Source: Treponema sp. (GTDB taxonomy: Bacteria > Spirochaetota > Spirochaetia > Treponematales > Treponemataceae). From it: DNA of 64,000 nucleotides. The position numbers and the translations under genes are program-made. This document shows positions 7,429 through 14,650 of this stretch, in pieces. The DNA is taken from the NCBI GenBank assembly GCA_016281495.1, contig JAEEIU010000038.1, forward strand, positions 248,001 to 312,000, written 5' to 3'. Below the pieces are notes generated by a model. That model did not search any database, was not told the DNA's origin, and saw only the letters and a list, made by a program, of their open reading frames with translations. Position 1 is the first letter of the stretch. Each line of letters starts with the position of its first letter.

Positions 7429-9513
7429 TTATTCAAGCGGAGCAAAATATCCGCTTTCATCTTTTCCAGAACGGTTCAAAAGATAAGTTTCAACCTCTAT
7501 CGGCAGGTACTTTTTACCGAACTCCGTCTTCTGGTTTGAAGTAAAGCTGAACTGGTACAATCCAGACGGCAGTGCGATAAGATCCTCTACCACAGGAGCA
7601 AGGCCTTCTGCCCTGTATACGTAATACATTGTTCCAGTCGTGTTCTCCGTAAGGTAGTCAACCTCGGCAGCAGGAAGCAGCGTGTCAACCAGGATCGTGC
7701 TGAATGAGATTGAGTTATTGTTAAGGTAAGCCGTCAAGTCGGACAGGCTGTACTTTGTAAATGCATTCTGGCTTACGGTTCCGGATGTGATGTAGATTAT
7801 TCCACGCTTTTTCTCTCCGTTTACAAGATCGTTTGCAGCAAGACGCATTCCAAGGTCAAGAGCCGCATTTTCCGTATATGGAGTTGCAAGTGCCCTTACA
7901 GAGAATGAAGAGAGGCTTGAAGGACTTCCCGTGAACTCTGTTGTCGGAGTGTCACCGGCAGAAATTACGGTTACCTTTCCCCTTCCATTCATTGCGGCAC
8001 AGATTTCCTGTACGGCAGAGTTGACCTGTTCCTCGTAGTATTCCATGTCTGTTGAACGGTCAATCAGCAGAGTGATGTCCATATAATCGTTGTTGTCGGC
8101 TGCACCCACAAGCTTGAGGTTTGATACAGGACGCTTGTTCTCCGTGATGAGGAAATTGTCAGTGTCAAGACCAACAATAGGCTGGCGGTGGCGGTTCTCC
8201 ACCTTTACTTCCATTACGACATTGGGGAAATTGTCTTCGATTATGCGTTCAATCTGAACATTAAATCCTCCGACAAGTTCGGTCATCTTTGACATGACAT
8301 AGATGTCGTTTGCCTTAAAATCAGTTACTATGATGTTTCCGTTTTTGTCCGGTACTGCGGCTGTTATCTGGCTTGTAGCGCGGGCTGTGCGTCCGTTCTC
8401 AAACACTGAGCCTGTATCGGTATCAACGGTAACAATCCTGTTTTTGTCTGTAAGTATGATATGGTCTCCCCAGTTTTTGAGTGATTCGGGGCGGGCAAAT
8501 GTCTTTTCGTTTACAAGGTTTGAGATGAAGTTTCCGGCGCGGTCAAACTCATAGATTGCACCGGTTGCGCTGTCTGCAACAAAAACCCTGTCATTTAAAA
8601 CTGCGATTCCTGTAGGTGAGCGGAAGCCTGGGAAATCACCAGTCTTCTGTCCGAAATGAAGCAAACCGTTTCCATCAGGATCAAATACCACGACGCGGGA
8701 ATTGCCGAAATCCGTTACATAAATGTTTCCGAAGCTGTCTTCGGCCAGATACTGTGGACCAACGACCTCTCCTTCTCCACGACCTTTCTTTCCGAAATAC
8801 TGGATGAAATTTCCGTCCTCATCAAGAAGGGCAAGCCTGTCACCGGCAAATTCACTTACAATAAGGTTTCCGTTCTGAAGCCTGATTATGTCCATAGGGC
8901 GGTCAAAACCGTTTATGGGTCCACGCACGCGCTTCTTTATGACACCGTTCACGTCATAGTGAAGAATCTCATTTGAGCCAAAGGCAACAACCCAAAGGCT
9001 TCCATCCGAATTTGCAAGAGCAGAAACCGGCTGGCTGTAGATGAGCGTATTTCCGTTTGTATGGGGGAATGAACCTGCCTCAGTATAATGCTGAGAATAA
9101 TCAAATTCTGTCTGAGTTATGCGCCTGTCTCCCACTATCTCTATGCGGTTCTGAAGAAGAAGTCCTCCGTAACCGTCGTCAGATGCAAACTGCCACTGCT
9201 GGAGGGCCGAACCTTCAACTCCTGCCTTATAGTATGCTTTTCCAAGCCAGTCCAGGATGAGGTTTTCTCCCGGCAGATATGAGAGTGCTTTTTCAAATTC
9301 CTGAATTGCCTCGTTATAGGCCCCACGGTAATAGCTTTGAACACCCCTGCGGAATTCTTCCTCGGCAAAACCTGAGTTGGCGCTTCTTGTAATGGAATTC
9401 TCATCGCGCATAGTGTCCGTCAGATTTGTTTGGGCAAAAAGATGACTTGACCCCAAGACAAACAGGGAAAATGTAACGGTTAACGCCTTACTAAAAACAG
9501 TTCTCTTTTTCAT
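7429..9513 (-). CDS. Exported TPR / NHL beta-propeller / VWA-like protein
   Basis: A 694-residue exported protein with three parts. A signal peptide ends at LFAQ. A short TPR-like helical region (residues 50-100, SYYRGAYNEAIQEFEKAL) comes first. Residues about 150-410 form NHL-type repeats, recognisable in FDRPMDIIRLQNGNLIVSEF, YVTDFGNSRVVVFDPDGNGL and RSPTGIAVLNDRVFVADS. From about residue 430 comes a VWA-like domain with DITLLIDRSTDM, a diverged MIDAS DxSxS motif reading DRSTD. Such propeller/VWA proteins usually act in protein-protein contact at the envelope; that is family knowledge, and the partner here is unknown. The start overlaps the upstream TPR gene by 4 nt (ATGA), so they are co-translated. 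It is the last gene of the galK-surE-TPR operon. Confidence 0.85.
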   Translation of the reverse strand: MKKRTVFSKALTVTFSLFVLGSSHLFAQTNLTDTMRDENSITRSANSGFAEEEFRRGVQSYYRGAYNEAIQEFEKALSYLPGENLILDWLGKAYYKAGVEGSALQQWQFASDDGYGGLLLQNRIEIVGDRRITQTEFDYSQHYTEAGSFPHTNGNTLIYSQPVSALANSDGSLWVVAFGSNEILHYDVNGVIKKRVRGPINGFDRPMDIIRLQNGNLIVSEFAGDRLALLDEDGNFIQYFGKKGRGEGEVVGPQYLAEDSFGNIYVTDFGNSRVVVFDPDGNGLLHFGQKTGDFPGFRSPTGIAVLNDRVFVADSATGAIYEFDRAGNFISNLVNEKTFARPESLKNWGDHIILTDKNRIVTVDTDTGSVFENGRTARATSQITAAVPDKNGNIIVTDFKANDIYVMSKMTELVGGFNVQIERIIEDNFPNVVMEVKVENRHRQPIVGLDTDNFLITENKRPVSNLKLVGAADNNDYMDITLLIDRSTDMEYYEEQVNSAVQEICAAMNGRGKVTVISAGDTPTTEFTGSPSSLSSFSVRALATPYTENAALDLGMRLAANDLVNGEKKRGIIYITSGTVSQNAFTKYSLSDLTAYLNNNSISFSTILVDTLLPAAEVDYLTENTTGTMYYVYRAEGLAPVVEDLIALPSGLYQFSFTSNQKTEFGKKYLPIEVETYLLNRSGKDESGYFAPLE

Positions 9514-10211: not shown

Positions 10212-11000
10212 CTAAAACTCTCCATCACAATAATGGGAATTAACTTGGGATTCAGTTGAAAGTACGGAAACTGCAACATAGCCGTCATTTACAAGCGACC
10301 AGTCTGTTCTGCCTTCTCCGACATAACGCGTTGTCTTGTCTCCATGCCAGACCGTATATAACGAACCGTCATTTTCTTCAACAACCTCCACAGTATCACC
10401 GTAAAGGCTGTGTGCCAGAGTTGCAAAACGCGCGCCCTTGAACGAATCCGCAGATGGTGCATTGATATTGATAAAATACGAAGCCCCACCCTCTTCTTCT
10501 AAATGTCGGAATTTTTTGCATAAAGCTATAAGTTTTTCTAGATTTTTTGCTGTAAAATCTGCCAAAGTCCGGTATTTGAGGCTGTCATTTTCATCCGTAT
10601 AGTAGGTCAAATCGGTTCCCGTGATGCTCAGTGCTATTGCAGGATAACCGTAGATACAGGCCTGCCTTGCAGCTCCACAGGTTCCAGAGTACATGACGTC
10701 AGTTCCCAGATTTGGGCCACGGTTTATTCCGGTCAGGACCGCGTCAAATTCGACACCGGGAAACAAGCCCTTTGCCCCAACTATCACGCAGTTGACGGGA
10801 TTTGAGTCAAGGGCATAGGTTTTATCAGAGACACGCAGAAGCCTGGTTTTCTTCTCCAATGATACGGAAGCAGATGCCCCGGAATGGTTTTCCATGGGAG
10901 CAACAATATAAACATCATGACCGTAAGAGCCAAGAACCGATGCAAGCACATTTATGCCCGGTGCATTATACCCGTCGTCATTGCAAAGAAGCAGTCTCAT
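10212..11000 (-). CDS. surE: 5'-nucleotidase SurE
   Basis: Metal-dependent nucleoside monophosphate phosphatase. The 262-residue protein starts MRLLLCNDDGYNAPGI, the diagnostic N-terminal motif with the Asp-Asp metal ligands, and continues with APMENHSGASASVS and the NRGPNLGTDVMYSGTCGAAR motif, all typical of SurE. The length is normal for the family. The start overlaps the galactokinase-like gene by 4 nt (ATGA), so translation is probably coupled. Family members dephosphorylate nucleotides, and some also act on polyphosphate, in stationary phase or stress. I see no dedicated promoter. Confidence 0.96.
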   Translation of the reverse strand: MRLLLCNDDGYNAPGINVLASVLGSYGHDVYIVAPMENHSGASASVSLEKKTRLLRVSDKTYALDSNPVNCVIVGAKGLFPGVEFDAVLTGINRGPNLGTDVMYSGTCGAARQACIYGYPAIALSITGTDLTYYTDENDSLKYRTLADFTAKNLEKLIALCKKFRHLEEEGGASYFININAPSADSFKGARFATLAHSLYGDTVEVVEENDGSLYTVWHGDKTTRYVGEGRTDWSLVNDGYVAVSVLSTESQVNSHYCDGEF

Positions 11001-12172
11001 AAAAGGCGCACCCCTTTTGACGGCTTAACCTCAAAGAACACAGGCTTGAATCCGAATATGCGCTCGTATTCCAGAAGGGTCTCCTTATAGCGCTCGACAT
11101 CCTCGTTCCTCAGGACACAGTAGGTACAGCGTCCGAATCCTTTTCCGGTTATGCGGCCGCAGTTCAGCGGATTCCTAAGGTCATCAGGGTTAACGTCCAG
11201 CTCCTGGACCCTCTTTAACAGCCAGTCAATTTCAGGGCATGAGATGTCGTAAAGGTCCCTCATGTTCTTGTGGCTATGGTTGACGGCCCTTGCGAATCCC
11301 GAGAAATCACCCTTTTCCAGGGATGACTGTGCCTCAAGGACATCCTTGTGCTCGTTCATGATGCACAGAAGATGCCGTCTTGTATCCTCGTTAACGACAG
11401 AAAGAACCTCATTCCTTTCCGCCGCATTCTCCTCGTAATGCCATCCTCCGTAGATGTTTGAGCGTCTTTCCTTGAGTTCTCCCAAAAGAAGGACGTTCTC
11501 CGGCTGCTGGAGGCTTTTTTCGTTCCATGTGGTAATTCGGGGAACACGTGCGTCCGTAAGGATTATCGTCTTGTCCTTGAATTTGAAAGGCAGAAGATCG
11601 CATGTGTTTTTCGCATGATCGGTAAGGACCAGGGTGTTTTCCTTTGACTTGATGCCCGTGAAAATGTCTGCGCGGCAGTTTTCAAGACCTAGGAACTGCC
11701 TGTTGGCCTTGTCCAGGATCATTATTAGCTGGTCATCGTTGCACCTGAATTTGTGCAGTTCCTTTATGCCCCATGTGCAGGCAATCTTGATGGCTGTGGT
11801 GATTCCAAAACCGGCAGAAGGCAGAATCTCGGAGTAAACGGTTATGTTCATTCCGCCGCACTTGAATCCGGAGCTTGAAAATCCATAGATTACCGACTTG
11901 ATGGCATTTGCCCACTTGTCTTCCTTTTTGAATTTGACGGAAGAAAGGCTTCCCCTCTTTTTCTCATTGAGCTGAACGAACTGAAAGCGCAGGTTGGAAT
12001 CTGACCGAGCGGACAAAGCCACATAAACCGGCAGGTTCACAGCCATGGAGAGGGTCTTGTCCTTGAAAAACCAAGTATGCTCCCCTATTAGATGTACACG
12101 TCCTGGTGCAGTCGCAATGACATCAGGTTTGGTTCCGTATTCTGAGGCATGAGCTTCAATTACTTTTTCCAT
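10997..12172 (-). CDS. Galactokinase-like GHMP kinase with altered motifs
   Basis: A 391-residue member of the GHMP sugar kinase superfamily, closest in layout to galactokinase. Motif I reads APGRVHLIGEHTWFF; in galactokinases the sequence is GEHTDY, so the sugar-contacting Asp is replaced by Trp. Motif II, usually a serine-rich GLSSSA, reads PSAGFGITTA. Motif III is CGRITGKGFGRC instead of a GGGFGG type. Where GalK has the catalytic Asp in a CGIMDQ motif, this protein has CRADIFTG, with an Asp one residue off. It could be a spirochaete-type galactokinase with shifted residues, or a kinase for another substrate. It is first in the operon with surE. A weak GAAGAG precedes the ATG, and I found no convincing promoter. 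Confidence 0.75.
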   Translation of the reverse strand: MEKVIEAHASEYGTKPDVIATAPGRVHLIGEHTWFFKDKTLSMAVNLPVYVALSARSDSNLRFQFVQLNEKKRGSLSSVKFKKEDKWANAIKSVIYGFSSSGFKCGGMNITVYSEILPSAGFGITTAIKIACTWGIKELHKFRCNDDQLIMILDKANRQFLGLENCRADIFTGIKSKENTLVLTDHAKNTCDLLPFKFKDKTIILTDARVPRITTWNEKSLQQPENVLLLGELKERRSNIYGGWHYEENAAERNEVLSVVNEDTRRHLLCIMNEHKDVLEAQSSLEKGDFSGFARAVNHSHKNMRDLYDISCPEIDWLLKRVQELDVNPDDLRNPLNCGRITGKGFGRCTYCVLRNEDVERYKETLLEYERIFGFKPVFFEVKPSKGVRLL

Positions 12173-12259: not shown

Positions 12260-14650
12260 ATGATTCAAGCATTTTTACAAGTTTTTTATGCAATTTTTTC
12301 TGGTCTCGTTCAGGGCTTGGCCATTTCCAACGAAATTCTGCCCTTTGGATCCCCGTTTTTAGGCCTTTTCTGCCTTATTCCGCTGTATGTCGCCTTGTAC
12401 AGGGCCAAAAGCTACAGGGAGGCATTCCTGCTTTTTGCGCTTCAGGCCATGACAGTGCACCTTACATCAAGCTACTGGCTGTATAATTTCCACGGCTATG
12501 CATTATGGTCTCTTGGGGCAAGCGCTTTGGGAACCGCCGTACTTGGAGGCCTTACCGGAGTTGTAATCTTCTTCCTTCCACGTCAGCTCAGCTACAACCG
12601 TAAGAAAACAGAGCTTGAGGAGGCAGGAGGCCGCAGGGTTTACCTTATTCCTGCAAGAATACTGTGGTTTGCCTCAAGTTTCGTATTCTGGGAATGGATA
12701 AAGTCCACGGGTTTCCTTGGTTATCCATGGGGCACCCTGTTCATGACCGCCTACAGCTGGAAAATAATGACTCAGATCGCGGACATCACCGGAGTCTGGG
12801 GAATAACCTTCATATTCGCACTTTTCAACGCACTGGTCGCAGAAGGATTTAACGTACTAAACCTGCTCCCACACGCCCAAAAACCGTCTGTTCCCGCCTA
12901 TACCTACAGGAAAACGGCAAAGGCAACGGCCGTCATACTGTGCCTGACCGCAGTTTACGGAATCTTCCAGTATATTGTTCCCAGAAGCGTAAAAAAAGAA
13001 CTCAACGCAATAATCGTCCAGCAGAATGTGGATCCATGGGACGGAGGTGACGAGGCTTCCATCTCCATATCCACAAGGCTTACAGAACGTGAAGCCACCA
13101 GGATGCGTGAAAACGGAAAGGAACCGGACCTTGTACTCTGGAGTGAGGGTGCCCTAATGTACACCTTCCCCAACGCGGTAGACTATTACAGCGAGGAGCC
13201 GGAGGGAGAAAGCCTTACCGAATTTATCAAAAGGATGAGGGTGCCATTTTTAATCGGCGGAAGCACAATGACCGACAGGCAGCACCGCAAGATTTCCAAC
13301 AGCGCGATACTCTTTGACAAGGACGGAGAGTATGCGGGATTTTACTCAAAAATCCATATGGTGCCTTTTGCGGAGGACGTTCCTTTCATGGACAACCCGC
13401 TTATGGCGGCCTTTATGACAAATGTCGTGAAAATGCCGTATTCATACACACCAGGAAACCAGTACGTGCTGTTCAAGATTCCCCTTAACTCTTCAACTTT
13501 CATGACGGCCCCCCTAAGGGACGGTCTTGAGCCATATGAGACCATAGAGCTTGACTCAACCGGAAGGGTTGATTATGAGGAAACAAGGAAATACAGGTTC
13601 AACAGCAACGAGAATCCGGACAGTTTCGTAAAATTCAGCTCGCCAATTTGCTTTGAGGACGCATTCCCGGATGTGTGCACGCCTCTTTTCAGGAGCGGAA
13701 GCGAGGTTTTCCTGAACATAACCAACGATTCCTGGAGCAAAACTCCTTCCTCGGAATACCAGCACTTCATCGTTGCAAGTTTTCTTGCAATTGAATACAG
13801 GACGACTCTTGTACGCTGTGCCAATGCGGGATATTCCGTGGTCGTGGGCCCAAACGGAAAGATACTGAACGACATGGATGTTTTCACAGAGGATGCCATC
13901 GGATGCACCATTCCCATCTACGAAAGGAAATCCACGGTGTTCTCCATTCTTGGAGACTGGTTCGCATACCTCCTCTTTGCATGCATGGCGCTTTATTTTG
14001 CCGTTAAGTGCGTTGTCTTCAACTTCAAAAGGATAAAGCAAAGCCCCGTAATGCTTAAGCTTGCTAAATCAATACTTAAGGAGAACGAGGACCAGGAAAC
14101 TGGCTGGGACATAGAGCCGGACGAGGATTTGGATGATGTTGAGGATGAACCAGAGGGCTCTAATCAGAACAGCACGGAGACTGAAGGACTTTTCACAAGA
14201 AGTGAGAATGAAACCGGATTCCATAACTCATTCATGCTTTCCGAATACAGGACTGAAGCCACTTTGACCAAACCTGCAGAATCTTCAGGAACACGTACAG
14301 CAAGGAAAAGGAAAGGTACCGATACGGTCAAAGCCAGAAAGACGCCGGCAAAAACAGAGGAAAAGCCAAAGACAAGAGCCAGGAAAACGGCAGCGGCAAA
14401 AACCGGAACAAAAAGGTCTTCCCCGGCCAAAGCAAAAGAAACAAAGGCAACAGCATCTAGAACCACTACAAGAAAGCCAAAGGCAGCAAAGGCCATCACT
14501 AAAAAAGCGGAGACAGCAACAACCGCAGGAAGGAAGGCCCTTGAGGCAAAAACCACTGTAAGAAAAACACCTGCGGTAAAAAACAAAACGGCAGGAAAAA
14601 AACAGGATAAAACGAATACCAGAGGCGGAAGGAGGCAAAGTAAAAAATGA
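12260..14650 (+). CDS. lnt: Apolipoprotein N-acyltransferase Lnt with Lys/Ala-rich C-terminal tail
   Basis: Inner-membrane enzyme that adds the third acyl chain to the lipoprotein N-terminal cysteine. The N-terminal ~240 residues hold several membrane helices. The nitrilase-like catalytic domain follows, with a Glu-Lys-Cys triad: E296 in LVLWSEGALM, K364 in FYSKIHMVPF and C464 in SPICFEDAFP. The Lys-to-Cys distance is about 100 residues against about 50 in E. coli Lnt, so there is an insertion. A last helix lies near residue 570. After it come about 100 acidic residues, then from about residue 675 a tail rich in Lys, Ala, Thr and Pro (KTPAKTEEKP, KPKAAKAITKKAE), resembling histone H1 or Hc1. 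The tail is about 200 residues beyond a normal Lnt. The stop overlaps bioY by 4 nt. Confidence 0.93.
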   Translation: MIQAFLQVFYAIFSGLVQGLAISNEILPFGSPFLGLFCLIPLYVALYRAKSYREAFLLFALQAMTVHLTSSYWLYNFHGYALWSLGASALGTAVLGGLTGVVIFFLPRQLSYNRKKTELEEAGGRRVYLIPARILWFASSFVFWEWIKSTGFLGYPWGTLFMTAYSWKIMTQIADITGVWGITFIFALFNALVAEGFNVLNLLPHAQKPSVPAYTYRKTAKATAVILCLTAVYGIFQYIVPRSVKKELNAIIVQQNVDPWDGGDEASISISTRLTEREATRMRENGKEPDLVLWSEGALMYTFPNAVDYYSEEPEGESLTEFIKRMRVPFLIGGSTMTDRQHRKISNSAILFDKDGEYAGFYSKIHMVPFAEDVPFMDNPLMAAFMTNVVKMPYSYTPGNQYVLFKIPLNSSTFMTAPLRDGLEPYETIELDSTGRVDYEETRKYRFNSNENPDSFVKFSSPICFEDAFPDVCTPLFRSGSEVFLNITNDSWSKTPSSEYQHFIVASFLAIEYRTTLVRCANAGYSVVVGPNGKILNDMDVFTEDAIGCTIPIYERKSTVFSILGDWFAYLLFACMALYFAVKCVVFNFKRIKQSPVMLKLAKSILKENEDQETGWDIEPDEDLDDVEDEPEGSNQNSTETEGLFTRSENETGFHNSFMLSEYRTEATLTKPAESSGTRTARKRKGTDTVKARKTPAKTEEKPKTRARKTAAAKTGTKRSSPAKAKETKATASRTTTRKPKAAKAITKKAETATTAGRKALEAKTTVRKTPAVKNKTAGKKQDKTNTRGGRRQSKK

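Follow-up and report, generated by a model that had tools for sequence, protein, structure and literature searches.

What does a protein built like a galactokinase do at the head of an operon that contains surE and no galactose genes? The question is raised by a locus of Treponema sp. (assembly GCA_016281495.1, contig JAEEIU010000038.1). The window, meaning the whole stretch of 64,000 nucleotides that was analysed, carries a gene for a galactokinase-fold protein, referred to here as GKL. A preliminary description of the sequence had noted altered sugar and catalytic motifs and suggested action on another sugar or a regulatory role. No paper about the protein was among those listed by searches limited to open-licence papers.

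The GKL Gene and Its Operon

The open reading frame of the preliminary description exists and is read from the minus strand. The features of the locus are listed in Table 1. The order of the operon is GKL, surE, a TPR gene, and the gene of a probably exported TPR/NHL/VWA protein. In the window, the ATG of surE overlaps the stop codon of GKL by 4 nucleotides, and the TPR and NHL/VWA genes also overlap by 4 nucleotides. The signal-like N terminus of the NHL/VWA protein was judged by eye, and its VWA match falls under the Pfam cut-off. The catalytic SurE residues N7-D8-D9-G10, S40, and N97 are invariant in 25 out of 25 aligned sequences.

Promoter-like matches were not above shuffled sequence (6 versus 6.8), and terminator-like matches were not clearly above it (9 versus 5.4, standard deviation 2.5). 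The divergent Lnt-like gene encodes 796 amino acids, compared with a median of 566 for its cluster, in which some members are cut by locus ends. Its extra length is due to a long C-terminal tail rich in Lys, Ala, and Thr.

Table 1. Features of the GKL locus, with positions counted from the first nucleotide of the window.
Feature	Position	Strand	Basis
GKL (galactokinase-fold protein, 391 aa, ATG start, operon gene 1)	10997..12172	-	ORF and family matches
GKL motif 1, residues 22-42 (APGRVHLIGEHTWFFKDKTLS); R25, E31, and H32 kept, galactose Asp46 replaced by W34	12047..12109	-	
GKL phosphate loop, residues 117-130; GFGITTAIK replaces GLSSSAxxE	11783..11824	-	
D169 codon, aligned with the galactokinase catalytic Asp	11666..11668	-	Ungapped HMMER alignments
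SurE nucleotidase	10212..11000	-	PF01975, 1.4e-45
TPR protein, 230 aa	9510..10202	-	Conserved neighbour
TPR/NHL-propeller/VWA-like protein, 694 aa, probably exported	7429..9513	-	NHL 7e-11; VWA 0.0037
Putative apolipoprotein N-acyltransferase (Lnt), divergent, often upstream of GKL	12260..14650	+	Read from sequence

Distribution of GKL

GKL matches at E≤1e-5 are present in 144 of 147 relatives, including the genome of the window. Within the genus, 84 of 89 genomes, again including the window genome, have a match at 1e-69 or better; the remaining five have weak matches (1e-11 to 1e-25). At the level of the class, the GKL profile is matched at E≤1e-10 by 332 of 394 genomes, a count that includes some weak, galactokinase-level matches. 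The families are coded f1 to f46, with f1 being that of the window. Presumably f1 corresponds to Treponemataceae, f13 to Sphaerochaeta-like organisms, and f24 to Borreliaceae. The class genomes without a profile match number 62, and f24 is among the 20 listed. Carriers among the best 80 of 538 matches include Breznakiella homolactica (NZ_CP067089.2) and many metagenome-assembled genomes titled Treponema or Spirochaetaceae. Eighteen loci beyond the class and two within it (L331 and L332) all score higher to canonical galactokinase (GalK), and none of the operon genes was found in their flanks.

Genome G223, which we take to be Treponema pallidum, is a single contig of 1,139,633 bp belonging to f1. 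It has a single GKL with a phosphate loop reading GLGTPNA, in a 10-kb locus of 56% G+C, and no second GalK match was found in this genome. The TPR gene is absent between surE and the NHL/VWA gene (L176:5922-6056), and the other three genes are kept. We assume from position alone that the NHL/VWA protein may be TP0421. PMC5015957 places TP0421 among predicted outer-membrane proteins.

Conservation of the Operon

A total of 227 distinct GKL genes were identified. surE directly follows GKL in 182 of the 218 with enough flanking sequence, the TPR gene is present at 131 of 147 loci, and the NHL/VWA gene at 90 of 99. The ORFs were called by a simple method, and the HMMs behind these counts were themselves built from some of the loci counted. 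The numbers vary with the distance allowed: 168, 182, and 182 of 218 for surE; 107/147, 131/147, and 108/145 for TPR; and 92/101, 90/99, and 74/79 for NHL/VWA. The operon of the preliminary description is real, widely conserved, and free of galactose genes.

The remaining 36 of 218 GKL genes have no adjacent surE, and 33 of them show the TPR gene. At six f13 loci, and at locus L210 of f22, GKL and surE stand alone with no TPR or NHL/VWA neighbour. The NHL/VWA protein is found at E≤1e-40 in 273 of 394 class genomes. Its occurrence does not track that of GKL: it is present in f24 without GKL and absent from the f13 genomes listed. Small f24 genomes, such as G165 and G188, each have one TPR/NHL/VWA homologue (approximately 1e-165), and those listed have no GKL match.

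Sequence Motifs and Fold

The window GKL belongs to the GHMP superfamily and has the galactokinase fold, as seen from PF10509, PF00288, and a structural model. The PF10509 galactokinase signature (8.2e-15) and PF00288 (22.9 bits; GHMP_kinases_N 9.9e-5) are over their cut-offs, and PF08544 (18.9) is under its cut-off of 21. Taken overall, galactokinase models match the protein below their cut-offs, with TIGR00131, the galactokinase equivalog, scoring 154.7 bits against a cut-off of 226.65. This cut-off is a weak divider because, in other families, GKLs with few motifs left also pass; those of f18 (292-305 bits, for example 304.8) and f28 (272-289 bits) exceed it without Arg37.

An AlphaFold2 model built from the window protein and 73 relatives has a pLDDT of 85 and a pTM of 0.85, with a weak stretch at approximately residues 210-250, the site of the sugar lid. 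The top Foldseek match of the model is human GALK1 (2.1e-32). With a second structural aligner, the model matches over its whole length the folds of the galactokinases 6q8z (human GALK1), 1pie (Lactococcus), and 6tep, with Z of 40.1-41.1 and rmsd of 2.5-2.8, the Bifidobacterium GalK 6tep giving Z 41.1 and 2.5 Å over 374 residues. The GalNAc kinase GALK2 (2a2c) and the mevalonate, heptose, and fucose kinases have the GHMP fold as well, with weaker similarity (Z about 25 to 37).

In galactokinase, with residue roles as in human GALK1, galactose is bound by Asp46 and Tyr236. Canonical sequences keep Asp46 in 29 and Tyr236 in 30 of 30 alignment rows. In the window GKL, Asp46 is replaced by W34, Tyr236 by a non-Tyr lid residue, Gln187 by I170, and the GLSSS phosphate/Mg loop by GFGIT. 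The lid residue is Leu221 in one alignment and another non-Tyr residue in the tree alignment; alignment quality and pLDDT are both low here. The altered strings of the preliminary description are present, with GEHTWF in place of GEHTDY at residues 30-35 and GFGITTA in place of GLSSSA at residues 121-127.

The string CRADIFT is likewise present (residues 166-172), but its interpretation as a replaced catalytic Asp came from an alignment misplaced by one residue. Loss of this Asp is ruled out: D169 pairs with the D of CGI(M/L)DQF, and is read as the kept catalytic Asp because ungapped HMMER alignments to 1s4e, 2cz9, and 6q8z pair both Asp residues. R25, E31, H32, and D169 are all kept, with R25 and D169 corresponding to catalytic Arg37 and Asp186. 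The same set of substitutions in a proven galactokinase, which had been named as the finding that would refute an altered role, occurs in none of these three aligned PDB galactokinases.

Other Galactokinase-Like Genes

The genome of the window contains two further GHMP proteins. One is a canonical GalK (TIGR00131 346.6 bits) with the motifs GEHIDYNGG, GGGISSSSALE, and CGIMDQF; the other is, by our own reading, presumably IspE. Of 41 genus genomes, 35, the window genome included, encode a separate GalK that matches at 1e-90 or better.

The reading of GKL as a galactokinase whose motif changes are tolerated is very improbable. The closest solved relatives are galactokinases, sister families retain the motifs, and six of the 41 genus genomes carry GKL without a strong match to a second GalK. 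Against this, hardly any f1 row has Asp46 or Tyr236, and the separate GalK is widespread. The identity as an ordinary galactokinase is rejected on the replaced galactose residues and the separate canonical GalK; these, with the TIGR00131 score and the operon's lack of galactose genes, agree with the preliminary description in this respect.

At locus L001, the canonical galK of the window genome has no galactose gene within the 3.3-kb locus and is flanked by what we read as acyltransferase-like and MATE-like genes. In Treponema saccharophilum, a canonical galK is located on a 382-kb plasmid (NZ_AP025290.1:87378-88574), and its product is 69% identical to the canonical GalK of the window genome.

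Phylogeny and Loss of Kinase Motifs

Trees were built without the five motif blocks, as a quick tree of 113 rows and a careful tree of 75 rows, from which 38 of the 113 rows, long or redundant, were omitted by choice. The branch between GKL and other GalKs has a support of 100 (quick) and 100/100 (careful). Degenerate GKLs are grouped with a support of 93 and 100/98, respectively. Whether the motif-intact families f39, f40, and f42 form a single clade is unsure (60/34, careful tree).

Galactokinase motifs are intact in all rows of f39 (3/3), f40 (6/6), and f42 (3/3), for a total of 12 rows (loci L212, L213, L220, L223, L224, L229-L231, L234-L236, and L250). The exceptions in f40 are one S1 replaced by A and one Q187 replaced by H; E43 is replaced by D in all three f42 rows. 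Eleven of these rows score 366.8-396.4 bits with TIGR00131 and the twelfth scores 323.0. These proteins lie on the GKL side of the tree, have surE next at 12 of 12 loci, and carry the same family-specific residues, and differ from the window GKL in keeping the galactokinase motifs.

Of the 89 tree rows that are GKLs, 30 retain Arg37, 35 retain Asp46, 66 retain Asp186, and 16 retain Tyr236. In 27 of 35 GKL families no tree row has Arg37, and f30 has Lys in its place. The minimum number of changes on the 113-row tree is 9 for Arg37, 16 for Asp186, 8 for Asp46, and 5 for Tyr236, counts that do not tell gain from loss. Family f13 has lost most of its kinase motifs, retaining 22 of 90 canonical motif cells. 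By its tree position, its family-specific residues, and its operon, the window protein is a member of GKL. On these sequence data, GKL is a spirochaete family apart from other galactokinases, heading its own operon.

The Pocket of Family f1

The window's own family combines replaced and strongly kept positions. In 45 f1 rows, W34 is kept in 40, R25 in 42, E31 in 43, D169 in 44, and K129, R340, and R212 in all 45; S1 is replaced by G in 45 and S2 by I in 40. The new residues that are conserved include W34, K39, K129, R212, W216, K344, and R348. Mean pairwise identity is 0.83 for motif 1, 0.76 for the phosphate loop, 0.88 for motif 3, and 0.86 for the 40 family-specific positions described below, with 0.56 overall and 0.47 for the remainder. 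The lid (0.60) and the D169 helix (0.42) are not above the protein average, which argues against a tightly kept f1 pocket.

These residues bear on the second-ranked explanation, in which the f1 GKL would be a working GHMP kinase that has changed its substrate. With the sugar pocket rebuilt by W34, a non-Tyr lid, and additional Lys and Arg residues, the Arg/Asp pair would still transfer phosphate, perhaps to a compound that is larger or already phosphorylated. This is a possible but rather unlikely reading. A new ligand or substrate is suggested above all by the fact that part of the pocket is both rebuilt and kept. R25, E31, H32, and D169 are present in nearly all f1 rows, motifs 1, 2, and 3 are conserved, W34, K129, R340, and R212 are kept in 40-45 of 45 rows, and the galactokinase fold is whole-length (Z 40-41 to solved GalKs). 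The Arg and Asp also occur in tree rows of f2 (1/1) and f5 (7/8), mostly with D46 replaced by E. However, the Ser loop is changed in f1 and reads GLGTPNA in the 1.14-Mb genome, and, since 27 of 35 families have no tree row with Arg37, catalysis is not the property conserved across the GKL family as a whole.

Family-Specific Residues

Family-specific residues were picked by comparing 74 degenerate rows with canonical GalK, leaving out f13 and the intact rows. The 40 picked positions are kept at 97% in 161 other rows, 96% in the 12 intact rows, 100% in two f22 rows, 85% in six f13 rows, and 27% in 30 canonical rows. Eight of the 40 are also kept in at least 25 of the 30 canonical rows. Approximately 30 residues that are rare in ordinary galactokinases are nearly invariant in intact and degenerate GKLs, even in f13. 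They include H8, E11, S54, E70-R71-K72, E84-D85-R86-W87, K92, S311-C312-P313, W317, K320-R321-E324, E370, and I372-F373-x-F375. Shared descent accounts for part of this conservation.

No neighbouring gene was found that explains the conserved residues, which persist in f13 and, at 97%, in 30 rows without adjacent surE (4 of 34 surE-lacking loci have no row in this alignment). This bears on the proposal that GKL regulates the SurE nucleotidase encoded next to it or is one of its subunits. The adjacency in 182 of 218 cases, the overlap in the window, and the loci where GKL and surE stand alone are in its favour, but 36 of 218 genes have no adjacent surE and yet keep these residues where scored. 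It is improbable as a specific role, and, being a version of the preferred explanation, shares part of the latter's probability.

The dN/dS of GKL against its nearest relative is 0.014 (dS 1.13), compared with 0.207 for SurE and 0.047 for the TPR protein. A decaying leftover without function would fit the erosion of kinase motifs across many lineages, but it is barely credible given this ratio, the near-invariant family residues, and retention in the 1.14-Mb genome, and is rejected. GKL is probably not a galactokinase and is probably a galactokinase-fold family with a conserved function that is seldom lost.

Discussion

The explanation ranked most likely, at about an even chance, is that GKL is a former galactokinase retained for a different task, with a non-catalytic, ligand-responsive role. 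A non-catalytic role is favoured because sister families have lost catalytic residues and kept other residues. The ancestor would have been a genuine galactokinase that also had a non-catalytic function, located at a binding surface or separate site. Galactose kinase activity would have been dropped in most lineages and the second role retained. In f1, the old active site appears to have been rebuilt as a differently charged pocket (W34, K39, K129, K344, and R348) that has probably retained the ability to bind a nucleotide or a phosphorylated ligand. GKL would then most likely serve as a scaffold or regulator that responds to a ligand, perhaps on behalf of the envelope proteins of the operon, rather than as a sugar kinase. 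Of the two roles first suggested for the protein, the regulatory one gains from the sister families, and the Arg, Asp, and pocket of f1 keep the option of another substrate.

Since the same residues are found in intact and nearly motif-less members, the second function is probably older than the loss of catalysis, a history like that of yeast GAL1/GAL3. The more specific form of this idea, held tentatively and at slightly less than even chance, is that the ancestral galactokinase had a second active or binding site made up of the approximately 30 residues, and that most families sampled keep a hidden function other than sugar phosphorylation, even at 1.14 Mb.

What GKL has in common with galactokinase is the APGR-LIGEH and GxGFG motifs and the active-site Arg and Asp. 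It differs in the replaced Asp46 and Tyr236, the changed Ser loop, approximately 30 residues of its own, and an operon without gal genes. Yeast Gal3p and bifunctional GAL1 (3v5r and 3v2u), with Z of 33.1 (Gal3p) and 31.0 to the GKL model, offer a likeness to the proposal as galactokinase relatives serving regulation. Gal3p has remained a galactose sensor with Gal80p as its target, whereas GKL lacks the galactose residues, and no Gal80-like partner is known for it. A Gal3-type galactose sensor is unlikely as the role of GKL because those residues are lost. The abstract of PMC3048525 describes an ancestral bifunctional galactokinase/co-inducer giving rise to yeast GAL1 and GAL3.

GKL is a retained, uncharacterised protein, kept also in a genome of syphilis-spirochaete size (1.14 Mb), that would easily be taken for a galactokinase in a sequence search. 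Within a single conserved operon, its families make up a natural gradient that runs from an enzyme with no apparent damage to a relative with hardly any motif left. This gradient makes the order of events, with the second function first and catalysis lost later, testable. If true, this would be a bacterial counterpart of the GAL1/GAL3 story at the scale of a class.
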